Assembly: GCA_001898035.1 (NCBI GenBank)
Contig: MKRX01000005.1
Span: 84,831 to 134,113, forward strand
Direction: 5' to 3'
Length of the DNA stretch: 49,283 nt
Origin: Armatimonadetes bacterium 55-13
GTDB lineage: Bacteria; Armatimonadota; Fimbriimonadia; Fimbriimonadales; Fimbriimonadaceae
The notes under the pieces: generated by a model
The model's database searches: none
Told to the model about the DNA's origin: nothing
The model's input: only the letters and a program-made list of their open reading frames with translations
In this document: positions 32,641 through 42,154 of the stretch, in pieces
Layout: every line of letters starts with the position of its first letter
How positions within the stretch are numbered: position 1 is the first letter of the stretch
Made by a program: the position numbers and the translations under genes

Positions 32641-33024
32641 TTTGCGGAGTTCCTTCCGCCACACAAATCGCAAGCCCGACCAATTTTCGTCGATAGCGCA
32701 AACCTTGTTGTCAACGATTCCCAGGGGCAATCCAACCTCTCTCAAAACGTCCTCCGTTAGCTCAGATTGAATCTTTGAAGACCTTTTGGGCCATGCGATC
32801 CAAAGTCCGCCAGCGGGATGGAGTTGGCTTCTTAGTTGCAGGGCTTCCTCTAACTCTTCTCGGGTCAAGCAAAACGCAACCACAACATTGAAGTCTGAGT
32901 CAGAATTCGTCTGAACTCCGACTTCCCGTAAGAAAGATTCGGGGGCTCGCACAAAATGGATGCGTGAGCCCTCCTTGATTCCTAGCTTTTTGGGAAGCGG
33001 TGTTCCTGAGTATCCAGCGCTCAT
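32638..33024 (-). CDS. DUF3052 family protein
   Basis: A 128-residue protein with the full DUF3052 pattern: AGYSGTPLPKKLGIKEG at the start, a central FCLTREELEEAL segment, GGLWIAWPKRSSKIQSELTEDV, then REVGLPLGIVDNKVCAIDENWSGLRFVWRKE. Family members are small cytosolic proteins of unknown function, widespread in soil bacteria. It is probably cotranscribed with the M32 carboxypeptidase upstream, whose stop overlaps its start by four bases (ATGA). That link suggests no specific role. Confidence 0.9.
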   Translation of the reverse strand: MSAGYSGTPLPKKLGIKEGSRIHFVRAPESFLREVGVQTNSDSDFNVVVAFCLTREELEEALQLRSQLHPAGGLWIAWPKRSSKIQSELTEDVLREVGLPLGIVDNKVCAIDENWSGLRFVWRKELRK

Positions 33025-34523
33025 AGGCCGTAGATATCGCGATATTTGACCGAAAGAATGGAAATGAAGTCCGTGGGTTCCATGGGGCGCCCGGTGACTC
33101 TGGTCACCAGTTCCCGGGGGGTGAATAGTTTGGCCTGATCATAGACCTGCGCTTTGAGCCAGTTGAGCGCACCGCTGAAGTCTCCTGCTTCGAACCTCGA
33201 ATCCAAATCTCCGACTTCACTACTCAGGCATTGCCACATTTGGTAGCTGATGAGGTTGCCCATGGTGTAAGTGGGGAAGTATCCGACCATGCCCCGAGTC
33301 CAGTGAACGTCTTGGATGCAACCGTTGGTGTCGTCGGGCGGGGTAATGCCTAGGTAGTCGGCGTATTTTGAATTCCATGCTTCGGGAAGATCCTTGAGCG
33401 CGGTCTGGCCGGTAAGGATTTCACATTCCAATTCGAATCGGATCAGGATATGGAGGTTGTAGCTCACCTCGTCGGCGCCAACTCGGATGAAGGTTGGTAC
33501 AACTTTGTTAATGGCCCGATACATCGCCTCGGCGTCGAGTCCGGACAACTCCGTAAATGTTGCTTGAAGATCCGGGAGGAAGCGTTTCCAGAATCCTCGA
33601 CTCCTTCCGACGATGTTCTCCCAGAGCCTAGACTGGCTCTCATGAACGGCGAGGGAGATTCCTCCTGGAAGCGGTGTGCCTTCGAAACGCTTGGGCGAGT
33701 TTTGCTCGTAAAGTCCATGGCCCATTTCGTGAAGCGAACTCGAAACGATCCCTTTGATGTGGTCGCTGGGGCGCGTGGTCATGCGAACGTCGTGATGAGC
33801 GAGGTGGGTGCAAAAGGCGTTGTTGGCTACATCCAGCCGTCCGCAAGAAAAGTCAAATCCAACTTGTCCGGCGGCGCGTTCGGCAAATGCCCTGAGCTTT
33901 GGTTTATCCCAATCTCCGTAGAGCATCGAATCGTCAACTTCTCGCCCCCTCTCCTGAATGTCTTTAAGGAGTTGCACGATCGGACCTTTAATCGTATCGA
34001 AGAGCTTCTTGGCATCGGCGTAAGAAGCTCCCTCCTCGAAGAGATCAATGAGAGGATCATAAATGTGATCTTGGTAGCCCAATCGCTCTGCCGTCTCTCG
34101 GTTGATGTCAAACAATTGCTCCAAATAGGGAAGCATTGCTTTGAAATCATTGGCTGGCTTGGCTCGGCGCCAGGTGTCATATGCGTCCGAACCTACTTGA
34201 GCCTTTCGGGCAACGAGTTCGCCGGGCAGCTTCGTTTGCGTCCTCAATTCTCGCCGTAGGACTCTAATCGCCGCCGCTTCCTCAGACCCCGGCGTAACGT
34301 CCCGCGCCGCTTCTTCAACCAATTTTTGAAAAGAGTCCGAGGTTATCTTCTCATGCCGCATTCGCGCCAGAATAGCGACATGCTTTCCGCGGGCGTCGGC
34401 GCCACCCGGAGGCATGAGTACTTGGCGATCCCAGTTAAATAGGGATATCGAGGCATCGATGGCATCGACGTCCCCATAGCGGTCGATGAGTCGTCTATAG
34501 GCTGGAGAGGATTCCTGAATCAT
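33021..34523 (-). CDS. M32-family metallocarboxypeptidase (paralogue 1)
   Basis: A 500-residue carboxypeptidase of the Taq/Pfu M32 family, which removes C-terminal residues using one divalent metal. The zinc site is HEMGH with His265, Glu266 and His269, and the third ligand is Glu295 in HESQSR. Other hallmarks are FNWDRQVLMPPGGADARG near the start and DIRF-type strands followed by PSDHIKGIVSSSLHE. It is leftward and followed by DUF3052 (4-base overlap). Its ATG abuts that of the divergent PQQ-dependent gene (CATATG). A second M32 gene lies 1.7 kb downstream; the two share the HExxH, HESQSR and C-terminal GYFPTY..GNL motifs. Confidence 0.94.
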   Translation of the reverse strand: MIQESSPAYRRLIDRYGDVDAIDASISLFNWDRQVLMPPGGADARGKHVAILARMRHEKITSDSFQKLVEEAARDVTPGSEEAAAIRVLRRELRTQTKLPGELVARKAQVGSDAYDTWRRAKPANDFKAMLPYLEQLFDINRETAERLGYQDHIYDPLIDLFEEGASYADAKKLFDTIKGPIVQLLKDIQERGREVDDSMLYGDWDKPKLRAFAERAAGQVGFDFSCGRLDVANNAFCTHLAHHDVRMTTRPSDHIKGIVSSSLHEMGHGLYEQNSPKRFEGTPLPGGISLAVHESQSRLWENIVGRSRGFWKRFLPDLQATFTELSGLDAEAMYRAINKVVPTFIRVGADEVSYNLHILIRFELECEILTGQTALKDLPEAWNSKYADYLGITPPDDTNGCIQDVHWTRGMVGYFPTYTMGNLISYQMWQCLSSEVGDLDSRFEAGDFSGALNWLKAQVYDQAKLFTPRELVTRVTGRPMEPTDFISILSVKYRDIYGL

Positions 34524-35618: not shown

Positions 35619-36193
35619 CGTAGACGGGCAATCAGGCCCGCTTTAACGGCGGGCCATTCCGCTGGCAAGATCGAGTACATCACGGTATCACGAACATAGC
35701 CGCTGGCGAACGTCATGTGGTTCCGGAGAACTCCCTCTTTCGTTGCGCCTAATTTTTCGATGGCTCTTTGACTTTGCAGATTTCTGGCATCGGTTTTTAG
35801 CTGGACGCGAACTGCGTTCATAGCCTCGAACGCGTGCCCGAGAATGAGCAGCTTACTTTCAGGATTGACTTGCGTTCCGCGATAGTCTCTGCCGTACCAA
35901 GTCATCCCAACCTCCAAGGCGCGATGAGCGGAACGGATATCCAGATAGCAAGTCATGCCCACCGCCCTATTGGTTAACTGATCGAAAACGGTGAAAGGAA
36001 GAACGGTAGGCTGCTCCAGCAGACGTTGGATGTATCCCTCCAGGCCATCCTTATCGTAGCTTGAAGGAGCTCCGGTCACAATGTATTGAAAGGTTTCTTC
36101 GTCGGCAACCCTTGCCAGATCGCTGCCGTGGGTTACATTGGCGGGGACCAGTTTGACGAATCTTCCTTCGAGAGTGACCGGAGCAGCGTTCAT
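35615..36193 (-). CDS. GNAT-family N-acetyltransferase (RimJ/RimL type)
   Basis: A 192-residue acetyltransferase of the RimJ/RimL-like GNAT group that uses acetyl-CoA. The pattern is VTLEGRFVKLVPA, then LDIRSAHRALEVGMTWYGRDYRGT (motif A region, with the Q/R-x-x-G/A-like RGT turn), KTDARNLQSQRAIEKLGATKEG, and a C-terminal RDTVMYSIL. The substrate could be a protein N-terminus or an amine-bearing small molecule. It follows the second M32 gene directly, sharing one base (TAATG), and ends interlocked with the PQQ-dependent gene. Confidence 0.92.
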   Translation of the reverse strand: MNAAPVTLEGRFVKLVPANVTHGSDLARVADEETFQYIVTGAPSSYDKDGLEGYIQRLLEQPTVLPFTVFDQLTNRAVGMTCYLDIRSAHRALEVGMTWYGRDYRGTQVNPESKLLILGHAFEAMNAVRVQLKTDARNLQSQRAIEKLGATKEGVLRNHMTFASGYVRDTVMYSILPAEWPAVKAGLIARLR

Positions 36194-37677
36194 TACAGCC
36201 CGTAGACTTCTCGATACTTGGCGCCGAGCCCCTGGAGGTAGTCGGTAGCTTCCATCGGTTTGCCGGTAACTTGGACGATGAGGTCCTTCGGCTTATGCTT
36301 CTTGCCTTGAGAGTAGACGTTTGCTTGAAGCCACTCCAGCATCGGCTTGAAGTTTCCTGCCGCCATGAGATCTTGGGTGTTGGGGATATCGCGTTCGAGA
36401 GCGTTCCATATCTGATAGCTCAAGAGATTTCCCATCGAATACGTGGGGAAGTAGCCGATGGAGCCCATCGACCAATGGACGTCTTGTAAACATCCCTCGG
36501 AGTCGTTAGGCGGAGTGACCCCCAGATAGTCCGTATACTTGGCGTTCCATACTTCCGGGATGTCCTTCACGGCAAGCGCGCCCGTCAGTACATCGCACTC
36601 GATCTCAAACCGCACCATGGTGTGAAGGTTGTAAGTTAACTCGTCCGCTTCAACTCGAATAAGGCTGGGCTTCACCTTATTGATGGCCTTGTAAAACGTA
36701 TCGAGGTCTTTGCCAGCAATTTGGGGAAAGGCTCTTTGAAGATGGGGAAGGAAGTGCTGCCAGAAGGCGCGACTTCTCCCGACGATGTTCTCCCAGGTTC
36801 GGCTTTGGCTCTCATGAAGGCCATAGGAAACGCCCCCGGCCAGCGGAGTGCGATCCCAAGCTCTTGGGGAACCCTGTTCGTACATGCCGTGCCCCGCCTC
36901 GTGGAGAGATCCGAAGATGGCAGAACCCAAATAGTCTTTGTATCGAGTCGTTAAACGAATATCGCCAACTGACCAGCCGCTGCAGAATGGATGGGGCGCC
37001 GTGTCCTGCCGCCCCCTTTCAAAGTCGAAGCCTATTGCCTGGACGATTTCCTCGGTAAAGCGACTTTGGGCGAGGATGTCCCAGTCTCCATAAAGCCAAG
37101 AATCGTCGGTCTCCGGGAGTTCCTGGATCTGTTTAACCAGTTCCACTTGAGGACCTCGAATCGCGTCATACATGGCCTGAGCGTCCGCAGTATTGGAACC
37201 TTCCTCGTACTGGTCGAGCAGCGCGTCATAGACATGATCCGTGTAGCCAAGGAAATCGGCCTCTTGCTTCGCAATCTCGAACATTCGCTCCAAGATGGGC
37301 GCGAAGCTCTTGAAATCGTTAGTAGCGCGCGCTTTCACCCACTCTTCGTGGGCAAGGGCGGACAACTTTGATTTTTCTTCCACCAAACTCGAAGGGAACT
37401 TGGTGGCGAGATCGAGCTCTCGCCCAACGACCCGCAAGAGGGCCGCATCGTCGGATTCTGGGGTGGCTTCCGTCTTGGCCTTTTCGAGCAAGTTACGGGT
37501 TTCGTCTGCAGTCAAGAGCTCGTGGTGCATTCTGCTGAGTCGACCGACGTGTTCACCACGAGCGTCGGCCCCTCCCCTTGGCATGTAAGTCTGCTGGTCC
37601 CAATCCATGATTGCAACAGCGGAACCAAGGGCATTGAGGTCATATAGGCGCGATTTGAGCGCATCTAGGGAGGACAT
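36193..37677 (-). CDS. M32-family metallocarboxypeptidase (paralogue 2)
   Basis: From ATG 37677 the protein is 494 aa. The zinc site is HEAGH (His259, Glu260, His263) with Glu289 in HESQSR. Hallmarks are MDWDQQTYMPRGGADARG and GYFPTYSMGNLLSYQ, close to paralogue 1 but with a different N-terminus (MSSLDALKSRL). The frame continues 17 codons to 37728, but that stretch lies over a terminator stem and has no ribosome site. It is followed by the GNAT gene in the same transcript. It is probably an older duplication product. Confidence 0.93.
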   Translation of the reverse strand: MSSLDALKSRLYDLNALGSAVAIMDWDQQTYMPRGGADARGEHVGRLSRMHHELLTADETRNLLEKAKTEATPESDDAALLRVVGRELDLATKFPSSLVEEKSKLSALAHEEWVKARATNDFKSFAPILERMFEIAKQEADFLGYTDHVYDALLDQYEEGSNTADAQAMYDAIRGPQVELVKQIQELPETDDSWLYGDWDILAQSRFTEEIVQAIGFDFERGRQDTAPHPFCSGWSVGDIRLTTRYKDYLGSAIFGSLHEAGHGMYEQGSPRAWDRTPLAGGVSYGLHESQSRTWENIVGRSRAFWQHFLPHLQRAFPQIAGKDLDTFYKAINKVKPSLIRVEADELTYNLHTMVRFEIECDVLTGALAVKDIPEVWNAKYTDYLGVTPPNDSEGCLQDVHWSMGSIGYFPTYSMGNLLSYQIWNALERDIPNTQDLMAAGNFKPMLEWLQANVYSQGKKHKPKDLIVQVTGKPMEATDYLQGLGAKYREVYGL

Positions 37678-37699
37678 GGTAAGCAGGATTCTACCGCTC

Positions 37700-37736
37700 A
37701 AAAAAAGGAACCTTGGGTGTTTCTTCACCCAAGGTT
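37700..37736 (-). terminator. Rho-independent terminator of the PEP-CTERM gene
   Basis: AACCTTGGGTG (37709-37719) and CACCCAAGGTT (37726-37736) make a perfect 11-bp stem with a 6-base loop. Reading leftward, the stem is followed by CC and a run of seven T (A run at 37700-37706 on +). It terminates the PEP-CTERM gene just ahead of the M32 start at 37677. Confidence 0.9.
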
Positions 37737-37761: not shown

Positions 37762-38433
37762 TTAACGCTTTCTTCGGCGGAGCAGTCCGACCGCGCCGAC
37801 GGCAAGCGCGGCAAGAGTTGCCGGTTCGGGGACGGGGGCGGCAGATGCGAAACTCTGCATTGAAGTTCCTGTGTGTCCCTCGTAGCGGGTTGTAATGGCG
37901 GACCCACCGAGATCGGCATTAAACATGGCGAAGTAGGTAGAAGGATCAAAGGTCGAACCGTCGACCTTGATGGTGTCTGCCTTAAAATTTCCAGCATTCA
38001 GGTTGATGCTGTAGGCGGTGGTTGCCTGAATATTGCCGGTTGGAGCTTCATAGAGAATGTCCCAGATGGCAAGCTGAAGGGCAGCCGAACCTTTTTTGTC
38101 GACATTGTCATGGAAGGTTGGAGCGTACTTCTGAAGCAAGTATCCAATGGTCGCGCCGCCGTTTAGGCTTCCCGTATCAGATTTGAATGCCTGTCCATTG
38201 CCTGCGGCATGGAGAATGTCGACGCAGTAGCCGTAGGTCTGTGGCTCGCTTCCATAGGTGAATTTGTTTTCTCCAATATAGACATTGCCATCGTAACTTC
38301 CAACGGACCCAGATAGATGGATTTTGGCGGTGCCATGGTTGGGCGCCATGCCTTGATAGAGAAAAGTGTCTGCGCTCGCGAAGGCGGCGGTTGTCAAAAC
38401 GATTATCGAAAAACCAAAACGATTCATAAGCAT
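37762..38433 (-). CDS. PEP-CTERM surface protein with thioester-like Cys/Gln motifs
   Basis: A 223-residue exported protein: signal peptide MNRFGFSIIVLTTAAFASA, and a C-terminal sorting tag VPEPATLAALAVGAVGLL followed by RRRKR, the PEP-CTERM pattern recognised by exosortase-type enzymes. Inside, YGYCVDI (Cys70) and ALQLAIWDIL (Gln120) match the YCxD and Q-x-A-I-W signature of thioester domains, in which Cys and Gln crosslink and then bind host or surface amines. Assignment of a thioester domain is inference from these two motifs. AAAGGAG precedes the ATG 38433 by about eight bases. It stands alone with a strong terminator after it. Confidence 0.88.
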   Translation of the reverse strand: MLMNRFGFSIIVLTTAAFASADTFLYQGMAPNHGTAKIHLSGSVGSYDGNVYIGENKFTYGSEPQTYGYCVDILHAAGNGQAFKSDTGSLNGGATIGYLLQKYAPTFHDNVDKKGSAALQLAIWDILYEAPTGNIQATTAYSINLNAGNFKADTIKVDGSTFDPSTYFAMFNADLGGSAITTRYEGHTGTSMQSFASAAPVPEPATLAALAVGAVGLLRRRKR

Positions 38434-38546
38434 GAGTGCTCCTTTCAGAGAAAAAAATCAGTTGAGCACTACGGTCCCTTCAATTAGCGTGCCGAGACTC
38501 GGTGGCTGGCGGGATACTGGAGCAATTGCGTGGGGCAGAAGGCGGA

Positions 38547-39137
38547 ATGGATCAGAAAACGATTGCGGCTTATGATCGCGCGGCGAAGAACTTTTCGGAT
38601 GAGTGGCGCGATCAACCGCCGCCTCAAGACATGTACGATCTTTTCTTGTCATTGCTCGGGCCAGGAAGGACGGTCGATATTGGTTGCGGAAGCGGTCGAG
38701 ACGCGGCGTGGCTGACCCAGCAAGGGCATCAAGTCCTGGGCGTCGACGCTTCAGTTCAGATGATCGCCGAAGCGAAAAGAAGGTTTCCCGAAACAGAATT
38801 TCTTGTGGGGGTCCTGCCGCAACTCGAGGTACTGGGCTTAGAACTATTCGACAACGTCGTTTGCGAAACCGTGATCATGCACCTGCCAATCGAATCGATG
38901 GGCCCAGCAGTGCGGAGACTCCTCTCATTAATTAGGCCCGCTGGCGTCCTCTATCTCAGTTGGAGAGTGTCCGCGGAAAGCTCCCGCGATACTCACGGGC
39001 GTCTCTATCAGGCATTTGACGATCAGATAATCATGCTTGAACTTGTGCAATGCGAGTCGTTGTATGACGCTAAATTGATCAGCGAATCGTCAGGAAGGGA
39101 AGTGCGGCGGATTGCCGTAAGGAAAAAATTCATTTAA
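38547..39137 (+). CDS. Class I SAM-dependent methyltransferase
   Basis: A 196-residue protein from ATG 38547 (MDQKTIAAYDRAAKNFSDEW); the frame opens 15 codons earlier without support. The SAM-binding motif I is VDIGCGSGRD, followed by LGVDASVQMIAEAK and the later motif FDNVVCETVIMHL and RPAGVLYLSW. It belongs to the Methyltransf_11/25 superfamily. The substrate is unknown. It is the last normal gene before the transposon and ends 33 bases before the left terminal inverted repeat. Confidence 0.88.
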   Translation: MDQKTIAAYDRAAKNFSDEWRDQPPPQDMYDLFLSLLGPGRTVDIGCGSGRDAAWLTQQGHQVLGVDASVQMIAEAKRRFPETEFLVGVLPQLEVLGLELFDNVVCETVIMHLPIESMGPAVRRLLSLIRPAGVLYLSWRVSAESSRDTHGRLYQAFDDQIIMLELVQCESLYDAKLISESSGREVRRIAVRKKFI

Positions 39138-39162
39138 ATTTATATGGATGGGTATTTGGATT

Positions 39163-39170
39163 AAATTTTT
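39163..39170. repeat. Left copy of 8-bp target site duplication
   Basis: AAATTTTT immediately before the left terminal repeat. It is identical to the eight bases immediately after the right repeat (42180-42187). IS1-family insertion characteristically duplicates 8-9 bp. Confidence 0.85.
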
Positions 39171-39195
39171 GGTAGTGGGTCAGTTTGAAACTTAA
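39171..39195 (+). repeat. Left terminal inverted repeat of the transposon
   Basis: Begins GGTAGTGGGTCAGTTTGA and ends AAACTTAA. The transposase stop codon (39192-39194, minus strand) is inside it. It differs from the right repeat at one position (A instead of G at the 19th base). Confidence 0.9.
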
Positions 39196-40037
39196 TTTTC
39201 TTGAGTCTGGCGATCCAAAAGACCTATCATGTCCTCAACTGTCCAGATGTGGTCGGCAACTCCAGCGGCTACGGCGGGTGTCGTCTTGAGGGTCTGGTGC
39301 TTTCGGCAGAAGTTGTAGTACATGAAGTGAAGGGCAATGGCCGCCTCATGGTTTTCGATCTTCTTAGAGAAAGCGTTGGTGAGTCTCGTGAATCGCCGCA
39401 TGCTCATTCGCATCGTTAAGTTCTGCCGCTCCACGAACGAAGTAGAGATGTGGGATTCCGCTGGGGTTCCAGTGATCGGTTTCTTTTCTGCTCCAATACA
39501 GGCGGCGGGGCTATAGCGTCCGGTATCCGTAGGGCCGGGGCCGTAGAGCTTGACCAGCATCGCATAGTCAATATCGTTCTCGCCAAAAGCCCACGAGACC
39601 GCTTTTAGATATGCCTTGTGTCCGTCGGTCGTAAGTTGAACCTTCGAACTCAATCGCTCTGCCAGGTCATTCATGAACAGGTGAGCAGAGACCGCATCAC
39701 GCTTTGCGACGAACCAAGAAACGATTAGCTTGGTATCGGCATCAAGAGCCGTCCAAGTCCAAACATCCCCATAGCCCCATTCTCCTTGCTTGTCTTCAGG
39801 GACGTTCTTTTCCTTGGAGTAGCAGAAGGACCAAATCTCATCGCATTGAATCCTCTCGCACTTGAGATTGCGCATGACCTGGTTCTGATATTCAGCGCAA
39901 GCACTACCAATATCCACGAGCAGTTTTACGACCGTGTTCTTTGCTGCGCCGGTCATACGAACAGTTGAACGGATCGAATTACCCTCCACCAAGCAGCGAA
40001 CTACTTGCGATCTTCGTTCAGTGTTCATCTGATTCAT
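39192..40037 (-). CDS. IS1-family-like DDE transposase
   Basis: From ATG 40037 the protein is 281 aa (ATG 40028 also possible; the frame extends 28 more codons into the control region). An N-terminal helix-turn-helix (NSIRSTVRMTGAAKNTVVKLL, read as two parts) is followed by the catalytic core. The DDE triad is Asp66 in QCDEIW, Asp138 in TTDGHKAY, and Glu203 in SFVERQNL. The ERQNLTMRMSMRRFTRLTNAFSK block is like the ERHNLNLRQHLARL..SFSKS block of IS1. The reading frame is intact. It is transcribed toward the left end, divergent from the passenger operon. Confidence 0.92.
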   Translation of the reverse strand: MNQMNTERRSQVVRCLVEGNSIRSTVRMTGAAKNTVVKLLVDIGSACAEYQNQVMRNLKCERIQCDEIWSFCYSKEKNVPEDKQGEWGYGDVWTWTALDADTKLIVSWFVAKRDAVSAHLFMNDLAERLSSKVQLTTDGHKAYLKAVSWAFGENDIDYAMLVKLYGPGPTDTGRYSPAACIGAEKKPITGTPAESHISTSFVERQNLTMRMSMRRFTRLTNAFSKKIENHEAAIALHFMYYNFCRKHQTLKTTPAVAAGVADHIWTVEDMIGLLDRQTQEN

Positions 40038-40038
40038 A

Positions 40039-40072
40039 ATGACTAGTATACTTGAGCCAAGTATGATTCCAA
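40039..40072. promoter_or_regulatory. Divergent promoters for transposase and passenger operon (predicted)
   Basis: Leftward, TTGGAA (-35; + strand 40067-40072) and TATACT (-10; 40045-40050) are 16 bases apart, serving the transposase. Rightward, ATGACT (-35; 40039-40044) and TATGAT (-10; 40062-40067) are 17 bases apart, serving the 222-aa gene. Matches to the sigma70 consensus are 4/6 and 5/6 in each case. They overlap each other and the palindrome, so one bound protein could control both. Confidence 0.45.
40048..40064. promoter_or_regulatory. Perfect 17-bp palindrome, candidate operator
   Basis: ATACTTG-AGC-CAAGTAT, with 7-bp perfect arms. It lies between or overlapping the -35 and -10 boxes of both predicted divergent promoters. 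The natural candidate to bind it is the XRE domain encoded in the passenger operon, or the transposase's own helix-turn-helix. Confidence 0.55.
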
Positions 40073-40098
40073 CAAAATACATGCTTTTTTTGTTGGAA
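40067..40098. promoter_or_regulatory. 11-bp-arm inverted repeat ahead of the first passenger gene
   Basis: TTCCAACAAAA (40067-40077) and TTTTGTTGGAA (40088-40098) are perfect inverted copies with a 10-base spacer. The right arm ends five bases before ATG 40104 and includes GGAA, the only ribosome-site-like sequence there. If transcribed, the hairpin would hide it and limit translation. As DNA it could be a second operator. Confidence 0.55.
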
Positions 40099-40103
40099 AT
40101 GCT

Positions 40104-40772
40104 ATGATCAGCATTATGCACACGAATGAGTTAAATGTTGCTCAGATAATCACTGCCTTGACTCCCTTTGCCGAGAAAGCCAAGGAGGTCCTTCCCCAGC
40201 CCATGATGGTCAGACTATTCAAGTGGATCGACGGGAATAGATCCTGTGCAGCTGCGGCCCTTAGATCCGAGTGTCAGACGCACCTTTCTGACATAACTTT
40301 GCTAACAGGAAGAGTGAAAAAGGTCTCCAAGGCTCCTGATGGACGTCGCCCAGGAAATACGACGTGGATAATCGTGCCCACTTTAGCAGGTGTCTTTGGT
40401 GTGATCGTTCGAAACGTAGTCAAACATGGCGATAAGGAGTATCGATTTTTGTCTGACACATCCGCAGAAATTTCAAGTCACTTAACCGAACGGCTGATAG
40501 ACGTACCTGAACCTGTAAATGTCCAAGATATTGTAGTCGGAATTGAAAGGGCAAGGAAAACCAGTACCCGTATGGAGAGCTTAGCTGTTAAAATTCTAAT
40601 TGGTAATATTGATCATGCAAGTAAAAAGATACGAGTTGAAGATGAGATCCCCATTTTCAATGAAGGACTGACGGACAGAGATATTGAAGGTATCCTCATC
40701 AACAGGGAACAAGCCACACACAAGTCTCCAGATGTGCCGGTTAAAAAAAAGGGAACCCGCCCTAAAGCATGA
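40104..40772 (+). CDS. Transposon passenger: unknown 222-aa protein coupled to ImmA/IrrE gene
   Basis: I do not recognise this protein. It is 222 aa from ATG 40104 (ATG 40116 is an alternative). No signal peptide, membrane segment or classical catalytic motif is visible. The segments PGNTTWIIVPTLAGVFGVIVR and later VNVQDIVVGIERARKTS suggest an alpha/beta core. The tail is lysine- and arginine-rich (KKKGTRPKA). Base use is visibly more AT-rich than in the flanking chromosomal genes. Its stop overlaps the next gene's start (ATGA). Pairing with an XRE-ImmA/IrrE gene suggests it is the partner, toxin or regulated factor, but that is inference. Confidence 0.7.
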   Translation: MISIMHTNELNVAQIITALTPFAEKAKEVLPQPMMVRLFKWIDGNRSCAAAALRSECQTHLSDITLLTGRVKKVSKAPDGRRPGNTTWIIVPTLAGVFGVIVRNVVKHGDKEYRFLSDTSAEISSHLTERLIDVPEPVNVQDIVVGIERARKTSTRMESLAVKILIGNIDHASKKIRVEDEIPIFNEGLTDRDIEGILINREQATHKSPDVPVKKKGTRPKA

Positions 40773-41872
40773 GTTTGATAGAGTTAGATCCAAAGCACAT
40801 TGCATCTCGAATCCAAATAGCTCGCTCTTGGATGGGGAAAAGTGCGCCTGAAGTGGCGGCGCAATTAAATATTGCCCCATCTACTTACAGGGGGTACGAA
40901 AGCGGACTATCTATTAACGACAGTGTCCTAGAACAGATTGCCGCCATTTTAAATGTTCCTGTCAAATTTTTCCAAATGGGACCTCTTTCGCTGATTCCAT
41001 CTGGAGAGTTGAGCTTTCGAAAGAGGGTTAGGCTTAAGTCTCCTTTTGTCATGCATGTTAGGGCCGTAAGTTCTTTTCTTTCAGATTTAGTGATTGAGCA
41101 AGAGCGTCTGCTAGATCTACCGAAAGTAAAAGTGCCCTATGCTAGGGCTTCAGGGATAGTCGAAATAGAGGATATCGTTAAGAATATCCGGAACGATTTG
41201 TCAATTGTCGATGCGCCGCTAAAGAGTGCATTGGACTTAGTAGAATCGCTAGGAGTTTCAGTATTTTGGGTTACTTCTGATCCTGATTTTGACGCAGTAA
41301 GCTTTTGGTCTGAAGACAGGCCCTATATTTTGATCAACGAGACTCACAAAGACGGTTATCGTGTTAGATTTTCAGTACTACATGAATTAGGCCATTTGGT
41401 TTTGCATAGACACTCCAATGCTACTGATACTTATGAAGATGATGCTGTCAGGCTCGAAAGGGATGCAAATGCTTTTGCGTCTGCAATGTTGATGCCAGCA
41501 ATTCCATTTACATACCGTTTTTCTACACATTGGGGCTTGATGGATATCTTTGAAGAGAGAGTGCACTGGAGGGCATCCTGCGCAGCAATTGTTAGGCGCG
41601 CTAGAGATTTAAAGATAATTTCCGAGGAAAGATATCGCCAACTTTACATCGGCATTTCTACAAAGGGTTGGCGTAAACGTGAACCAGGTGCACCAAATCA
41701 GGAAGAGTCTAGGGTCCATAGGTTCTTTTTCGACGAGGCGGGCGAGATAGGACTAACAACTGACCAAATTGCTAATCAAGCAGGATCCCCAATTTCATGG
41801 ATCTATGAGACGATGCCAATTTCACGGCAGTACTTATCGAATTACGATTTAGACTTTCCCCAACGTTTTTGA
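40769..41872 (+). CDS. Transposon passenger: XRE-type HTH plus ImmA/IrrE metallopeptidase
   Basis: A 367-residue protein. Residues about 10-66 form an XRE helix-turn-helix (IARSWMGKSAPEVAAQLNIA, then PSTYRGYESGL). Residues about 185-245 are an ImmA/IrrE (COG2856) zinc peptidase: HELGH with His205, Glu206 and His209, and the downstream ERDANAFASAMLMP with Glu230. The C-terminal 120 residues are extra. ImmA cleaves phage-type repressors and IrrE the DNA-damage repressor DdrO; fused XRE-COG2856 proteins also act as antitoxin-like regulators. Its likely targets are its operon partner or a repressor of the element. Low-GC codon use points to foreign origin. Confidence 0.9.
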   Translation: MSLIELDPKHIASRIQIARSWMGKSAPEVAAQLNIAPSTYRGYESGLSINDSVLEQIAAILNVPVKFFQMGPLSLIPSGELSFRKRVRLKSPFVMHVRAVSSFLSDLVIEQERLLDLPKVKVPYARASGIVEIEDIVKNIRNDLSIVDAPLKSALDLVESLGVSVFWVTSDPDFDAVSFWSEDRPYILINETHKDGYRVRFSVLHELGHLVLHRHSNATDTYEDDAVRLERDANAFASAMLMPAIPFTYRFSTHWGLMDIFEERVHWRASCAAIVRRARDLKIISEERYRQLYIGISTKGWRKREPGAPNQEESRVHRFFFDEAGEIGLTTDQIANQAGSPISWIYETMPISRQYLSNYDLDFPQRF

Positions 41873-42084
41873 GCTGCCTTCTTTGCGATCTCTTTCCTTT
41901 GCTCGGGCGTTAATGATGCCGCCCGAGCTTTCCCACCTTTTAGCCCGCCTTTGCGCCCGAGCGACACGGCGGCGGGATCTTTTCCATCATCGTTCTTCGG
42001 AGCCTCTTCTGTGGCTTCTTGAAGGACTCTGAAGGCGATTTCGTTCAAATCATCGGGTCCTTGTTTCTTTGGCATCTCTTCCAT
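41842..42084 (-). CDS. Transposon passenger: small KGG-type basic protein
   Basis: An 80-residue protein from ATG 42084 (42075 is the alternative; the frame opens at a TTG 42108). The C-terminal half is SLGRKGGLKGGKARAASLTP, then EQRKEIAKKAAQKRWGK, a highly basic, Gly/Lys-rich pattern found in many small unassigned bacterial proteins and likely to bind nucleic acid. The N-terminal half is acidic (DDLNEIAFRVLQEATEEAP). It is convergent with the ImmA/IrrE gene, overlapping its end by 31 bases. TATAAT (minus strand, just before 42084) could be its -10 box, but the -35-like TTGACC is only 14 bases further. Confidence 0.7.
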   Translation of the reverse strand: MEEMPKKQGPDDLNEIAFRVLQEATEEAPKNDDGKDPAAVSLGRKGGLKGGKARAASLTPEQRKEIAKKAAQKRWGKSKS

Positions 42085-42154
42085 TATACGACGTGCGTGA
42101 GCGGTCAAGCATGCGATAAATGCGGGACCAGCGACTTATCAGATCTTGAGTTTT

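Follow-up and report, generated by a model that had tools for sequence, protein, structure and literature searches.

A compact predicted thioester domain carrying an exosortase sorting tag in an armatimonad bacterium

The window analysed here, that is, the whole stretch of 49,283 nucleotides from Armatimonadetes bacterium 55-13, contains a gene whose product (P0001) is, in our assessment, probably an exported, compact thioester domain (TED) that runs straight into an exosortase tag, forms an internal thioester between Cys70 and Gln193, and couples over a short range to amines.

The gene and its predicted thioester domain

The gene and its parts, in window coordinates, are as follows.

37762..38433, minus strand: gene for P0001 (predicted TED plus PEP-CTERM tag), 223 amino acids plus stop, ATG start
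38439..38445, minus strand: AAAGGAG, Shine-Dalgarno-like on reading the sequence, just 5' of the ATG (38431..38433)
38371..38433, minus strand: putative signal peptide, residues 1-21, read by eye, with presumed cleavage after ASA
37837..38370, minus strand: predicted thioester domain, residues 22-199, from the AlphaFold model aligned by VIA-align with solved TEDs and from the homologue profile
38224..38226, minus strand: Cys70, putative thioester cysteine, in YCVD ([YFL]CΦζ motif), from homologue alignments
38062..38082, minus strand: ALQLAIW helix motif, residues 118-124, with a probable supporting role and not the bond, from alignment, model and papers
38074..38076, minus strand: codon of Gln120, within the ALQLAIW motif
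37855..37857, minus strand: Gln193, proposed thioester glutamine, in MQSFA (ΦQζΦΦ motif), from alignments and structural register
37768..37836, minus strand: PEP-CTERM sorting tag, residues 200-222, from PF07589 and TIGR02595

The N-terminus of P0001 looks like a Sec signal ending in ASA. An earlier note on this DNA had pointed to a YGYCVDI stretch with Cys70 and an ALQLAIWDIL stretch with Gln120, and the translation places both residues as it said; the PEP-CTERM sorting tag that it proposed is borne out by a Pfam match (PF07589, E 3e-6, 27.5 bits, cut-off 20.7), with which TIGR02595 agrees. Cys70 is the sole cysteine of the protein, its glutamines are residues 27, 65, 81, 101, 120, 136 and 193, and Gln193 stands seven residues ahead of the tag. 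Pfam listed for P0001 the PEP-CTERM tag, a weak TED match and a weak VPDSG-CTERM match and nothing else, tandem stalk domains being absent from the 223 residues by this search; there is no LPXTG anchor, the PEP tag being in its place. Among NCBIfam models, P0001 and ten relatives exceeded no cut-off except that of the generic PEP_CTERM model.

AlphaFold2, run without templates, gave models of P0001 (pLDDT 78.4, pTM 0.73) and of a Bryobacteraceae relative, L151 (pLDDT 87.0, pTM 0.80), the two being built on one common sequence set and hence not independent. In VIA-align comparisons with the P0001 model, the top 11 of 44 rows were all TEDs (Z 8.3-11.8; next row 3.4), including 6fx6 (Z 11.8, 142 residues aligned, 3.1 Å), 5a0g (Z 9.7, 138 aligned, 3.0 Å) and 5a0l (Z 8.3), and the same held for the top 13 of 15 rows with the L151 model (Z 9.1-13.2; next row 2.4), the highest being 6fwv (Z 13.2, 162 aligned, 3.8 Å). 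Foldseek alone returned no match at E<=0.001 for either model; its best for L151 was CpTIE-TED (E 0.016, probability 0.89). In the L151 model, Cys86 ends a strand (82-86), Gln142 lies within a helix (131-151) and Gln207 in a strand (205-212), while the block around Gln193 in the P0001 model has a pLDDT of 59-67.

Against the Pfam TED profile PF08341, P0001 scored 13.4 bits (E 0.11), under the cut-off of 22 bits, which was exceeded by three of the ten proteins scanned (L151, 28.3 bits; L167, 27.6; L172, 22.9); a match at E<=1 was obtained for 19 of the 28 members of the multi-phylum alignment described below (A4). Some members of the family have likely been auto-annotated as PF08341 already. 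A PDB sequence search with P0001 or with a 23-sequence alignment of its homologues (A2) retrieved no TED. The helix motif of P0001, LQLAIW, retains the Q and W of TQxxΦW, with L in place of T, and the TQxxΦW motif has been described as incompletely conserved among TEDs (PMC4450167). Overall, the identity of the domain as a TED is supported by the predicted fold, which matches the β-barrel with three helices of solved TEDs, together with the family-level profile matches; this part of the earlier proposal of thioester-adhesin motifs therefore stood, while the pair of residues that it named for the bond did not.

Conservation, spread and genomic setting

A first homologue search of 40 relatives yielded full-length homologues and many tag-only matches. 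Removal from the initial alignment (A1) of an unrelated PEP-CTERM ORF (L024:2180-2842), admitted by a loose motif filter, gave A2, whose members had been chosen by a pattern requiring the Cys and the helix Gln/Trp. A search across the phylum with A2 (291 genomes), together with fetched stretches, brought the collected loci to 145, and a tag-less profile of the A2 domain matched 125 of 1407 distinct ORFs, from the same phylum, at E<=1e-3. Alignment of these 125 homologous ORFs revealed that (i) the Cys70 column holds C in 124, with one gap (L145, whose local alignment begins after the column), so that the absence of the cysteine from close homologues, which the earlier note had named as evidence against its reading, was not observed, (ii) the Gln120 column holds Q in 124 and G in one (L111, which retains the Cys and the tail Gln), (iii) the Trp124 column holds W in all 125, and (iv) the Gln193 column holds Q in all 102 rows that reach it, the local alignments of the other 23 stopping earlier.

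Read by eye, every printed row has a tail Gln ahead of the tag or of the protein's end, except for two truncated sequences (L077, cut by a contig edge, and L083_1999, which runs into N). In 114 of 114 homologues (L068 by a false tag match) a Gln stands 16 residues or fewer from the recognised tag, a weak measure because 13 of 24 other PEP-CTERM ORFs, taken as a control, pass it too; at the sequence level, the tail-Gln claim rests on the aligned column (102/102) and on A4 (28/28). Many relatives carry two glutamines two residues apart (QxQ), which makes the bond-former ambiguous in them and not in P0001.

A first scan of public contigs with P0001 alone as query found no relative, and a second scan gave 27 loci (scan pattern [GAS][AT]ALQLA[IV]W), with record titles naming Armatimonadetes, Acidobacteria (Bryobacter and others), Verrucomicrobia, Planctomycetes (Phycisphaerae, Sedimentisphaerales and Planctomyces) and Burkholderiales/Rubrivivax. 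P0001 and 27 proteins from 26 of these loci, spanning five phyla, constitute A4, from which L163 was excluded, its domain sitting inside a longer partial protein. The invariant columns of A4 (n = 28) are C70, A118-A122, W124, Q193 and P202; only C70 and Q193 are independently invariant, because A118-A122 and W124 overlap the scan pattern and P202 belongs to the tag. Among named records, the nearest relative is L166, a Fimbriimonadaceae metagenome contig, at 56% identity. As judged from the 125 homologous ORFs, the presence of the motifs is not due to chance. One locus, L148 (JADZEW010000035.1), is titled Methanoregulaceae archaeon and shows the same match as the armatimonad G012, so that it is probably a mislabelled bin. 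TED/PEP-CTERM genes stand side by side in pairs or triplets at L024, L027, L109, L118, L121 and L125.

The source genome (4.5 Mb, 99% complete) contains one exosortase above cut-off (PF09721, E 2.7e-49) and 45 PEP-CTERM matches, and no sortase was detected in it (PF04203, none at E<=0.01; positive controls detected). The exosortase and a DUF3485 neighbour lie amid nucleotide-sugar, ABC-2 export and glycosyltransferase genes. As an outer-membrane marker, Omp85 gave two matches (best 9.8e-41), in agreement with the diderm host assumed earlier. An exosortase was over cut-off in all nine tested genomes from the public-contig loci. PEP-CTERM proteins have been proposed by Haft et al. to be exported into the exopolysaccharide layer (PMC1569441), exosortase has been tied to polymer adhesion (PMC12188702), and PEP-CTERM proteins to flocs (PMC9850573). 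In five loci of family f19 (L096, L078, L093, L099 and L100) the tags read LPETGT, VPEGST, VPEGGT or VPEAGT, intermediate in look between PEP-CTERM and LPXTG.

With a tag-free alignment (A6; match threshold E<=1e-6), matches were found in 118 of the phylum's 291 genomes, or in 95 if only the 194 genomes of good quality are counted, and the source genome has two. In one family, ten genomes each have an ORF without a tag (L066-L069, L071-L076) that stops a few residues beyond the tail Gln, which argues that the domain is independent of the tag and that the tail Gln marks the domain end. Six of the ten genomes have exosortase and PEP-CTERM matches, while four (G108, G119, G121 and G122) have neither; another genome, G124, has no match to exosortase, PEP-CTERM or TED. 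By eye, the neighbourhoods of six tag-free relatives contain no constant gene.

Two further features flank the gene in the window.

36193..37728, minus strand: M32 carboxypeptidase, 33 bp downstream of the TED gene, kept in the closest relative
39192..40121: IS1-like transposase

The gene order at L166 is DUF4097, DUF2089, TED, M32 peptidase, whereas in the window the stretch from 38502 to about 42100 (a methyltransferase, the transposase and an HTH/M78 gene) separates the TED gene from DUF2089-DUF4097. The absence of this stretch, 38502..42100, from L166 suggests an insertion. A conserved operon was considered and rejected, as the M32 and DUF4097/DUF2089 genes were matched only at the P0001 and L166 loci, most collected loci being short, and no general partner gene emerges from them. 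The window also holds a second, paralogous M32 carboxypeptidase on the same strand (33021..34523), with genes for a glucose/sorbosone dehydrogenase and a GNAT protein between it and the first (36193..37728).

Bond partners and proposed function

Solved TEDs are reported to form the thioester only between the cysteine and the glutamine of a weak ΦQζΦΦ motif, both in β-strands (PMC4450167, PMC6194298), the bond glutamines being residues 267 of CpTIE, 261 of SfbI, 247 of PnTIE and 575 of Cpa (PMC4450167, PMC6194298, PMC4282584). We determined the register of the tail Gln by stepping backwards from the end of each alignment, which presupposes that its last 8-11 aligned residues are free of gaps; SaTIE, EfmTIE86, BaTIE, FNE and 4c0z were left out owing to entry numbering. 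Gln193 of P0001 falls on 267 (5a0g), 261 (5a0l) and 575 (2xic, 2xid and 4bug), exactly in 5 of 6 rows, the exception being 5a0d (265, off by 2). Similarly, Gln207 of L151 falls on 267 (5a0g and 5a0d), 247 (5a0n) and 575 (2xi9, 2xic, 2xid and 4bug), exactly in 7 of 8 rows, with 5a0l giving 262 (off by 1). Because both registers fall on published bond glutamines, we pair Cys70 with Gln193, which is, on these models, its likely thioester partner.

According to the mechanism that we propose, P0001 would be exported via Sec, and folding would set Cys70, at the end of a β-strand, beside Gln193, in the last β-strand, allowing an internal thioester to form with loss of ammonia next to the Gln120/Trp124 helix motif. 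The PEP tag would be removed or transferred by exosortase, the protein arriving at the cell surface or in the matrix, where a primary amine may attack the thioester and become fixed to the Gln193 side chain by an irreversible bond. Predicted fold, conserved residues, tag, exosortase and outer-membrane marker were computed, and we infer bond formation, tag processing, reactivity and target. The reach would be short, as there is no stalk and Gln193 is so near the tag, and the target is for this reason likely to lie in the cell's own extracellular matrix or among neighbouring surface proteins, and not to be a host receptor at a distance. The function that we infer as most likely is a covalent, short-range link between the cell surface and amines, probably those of its own matrix; with the domain stalkless and next to its anchor, this matrix is at least as good a candidate as outside surfaces.

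We consider it unlikely that the protein uses its thioester as SfbI and Cpa do, as a warhead for long-range adhesion to foreign surfaces or to a host. The predicted fold and the residues are the same as in those host-binding adhesins; however, P0001 lacks a stalk, its proposed bond Gln lies just ahead of the tag, and the named relatives are by title metagenome assemblies or environmental genomes, with no host indicated. Quite improbable, too, is a TED-fold matrix protein in which the thioester is only structural, or is hydrolysed, and couples to nothing. The lack of a known target, the small size of the proteins and the fact that some relatives have several copies in one genome would agree with such a role, but Spy0125 without its thioester was reported to show the same protease resistance and a hardly changed melting temperature (PMC4282584), so that a role in stability is not the rule, and the near-total conservation of the Cys and both Gln argues for chemistry that has been kept. 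An invariant cysteine in an exported protein might also serve in a disulfide, a metal site or a dimer bridge, which we regard as very improbable: the Cys is alone in P0001 and in 95 of the 125 aligned domains, excluding internal disulfides there, and the invariant Gln193 and the TED fold would be left unexplained.

Finally, the Cys70-Gln120 thioester put forward in the earlier note is barely credible and was rejected on published TED structures and mutagenesis: Gln120 is nearly invariant, and its equivalent adjoins the Cys in solved TEDs (PMC6194298), for which reason nearness of the two residues could mislead, yet the QxAIW stretch is the helix motif (TQxxΦW), the Gln of which hydrogen-bonds to the Cys backbone, both its Gln and Trp being reported as non-essential and mutants of the Gln as still forming the thioester (PMC4450167, PMC6194298), and L111 has Gly at this position.

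Comparison with known thioester domains and exosortase substrates

TEDs have been reported "exclusively in Gram-positive bacteria" (PMC4450167), and later TED papers also treat them as Gram-positive (PMC6194298, PMC9210967). The earlier remark that the combination of a TED with a PEP-CTERM tag is rarely discussed was borne out, as no description of exosortase-tagged TEDs was found in the literature searched (thioester with PEP-CTERM, exosortase, diderm and phylum names). The presence of such proteins in bacteria with an outer membrane would bring covalent adhesion to a new kind of envelope.

Class I TEDs are described as having an α0 helix, and class II TEDs as having a β-sandwich of ~75 residues between α3 and strand P (PMC6194298). 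The class I domains of SfbI, CpTIE, PnTIE and Cpa/Spy0125 share with P0001 the predicted fold, the [YFL]CΦζ Cys, the xQxxΦW helix motif, the last-strand Gln and the absence of a β-sandwich insert. In contrast to them, P0001 shows no α0 helix before α1 in the predicted secondary structure of its model (nor does L151), its Cys-Gln spacing is shorter (123, with an A4 median of 120.5 and range of 109-152, vs 129-153 from the residue numbers in PMC4450167 and PMC4282584), and it lacks a stalk and LPXTG and resides in an outer-membrane host. The class II domains of BaTIE, SaTIE and EfmTIE86 are among the best Z for both models and lack the α0 helix, which is likewise not seen in the P0001 model; their β-sandwich is missing from P0001, where the models of P0001 and L151 have a linker of 7-9 residues only, and the spacing is too short for it. 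Since neither class-defining insert is seen in the models, we term P0001 a minimal TED. That the class scheme does not cover all TEDs is already known, as two mixed-class TED clusters have been noted in Firmicutes (PMC9210967).

We put forward, tentatively and as a possibility that may well prove wrong, that diderms of several phyla possess a minimal third class of TED, placed by exosortase and stalkless, which glues the cell to its own exopolysaccharide-protein matrix. If true, this class would explain at the molecular level how some PEP-CTERM proteins bind the matrix. It would also offer testable chemistry for the way in which exosortase-sorted proteins keep extracellular polymer on the cell, a role that PMC12188702 and PMC9850573 report, in their abstracts, without a chemical mechanism. 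The tag-free sister group and the exosortase-less genomes are natural controls, and a single-cysteine domain of ~180 residues should be easily expressed and tested.

TIE proteins differ from P0001 in having an isopeptide/ester stalk and LPXTG, and no sortase is found in its genome. A stalked, TIE-like architecture in a diderm is seen at L163:1944-3314, on a Planctomyces contig that ends inside the protein, where a TED-like core sits between SpaA prealbumin-like and SdrD_B domains. PepA (NF033554), a PEP-CTERM protein tied to aggregation (PMC9850573), shares the tag type with P0001; matches to NF033554 covered mostly the tag end only (best 32.3 bits vs a cut-off of 80), and the idea that this flocculation protein is itself a TED found no support. 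Like PEP-CTERM/exosortase substrates in general, P0001 has a putative signal peptide, a PEP tag and a genomic exosortase near polysaccharide genes, and it differs from them in the domain that precedes the tag, which is a predicted TED.
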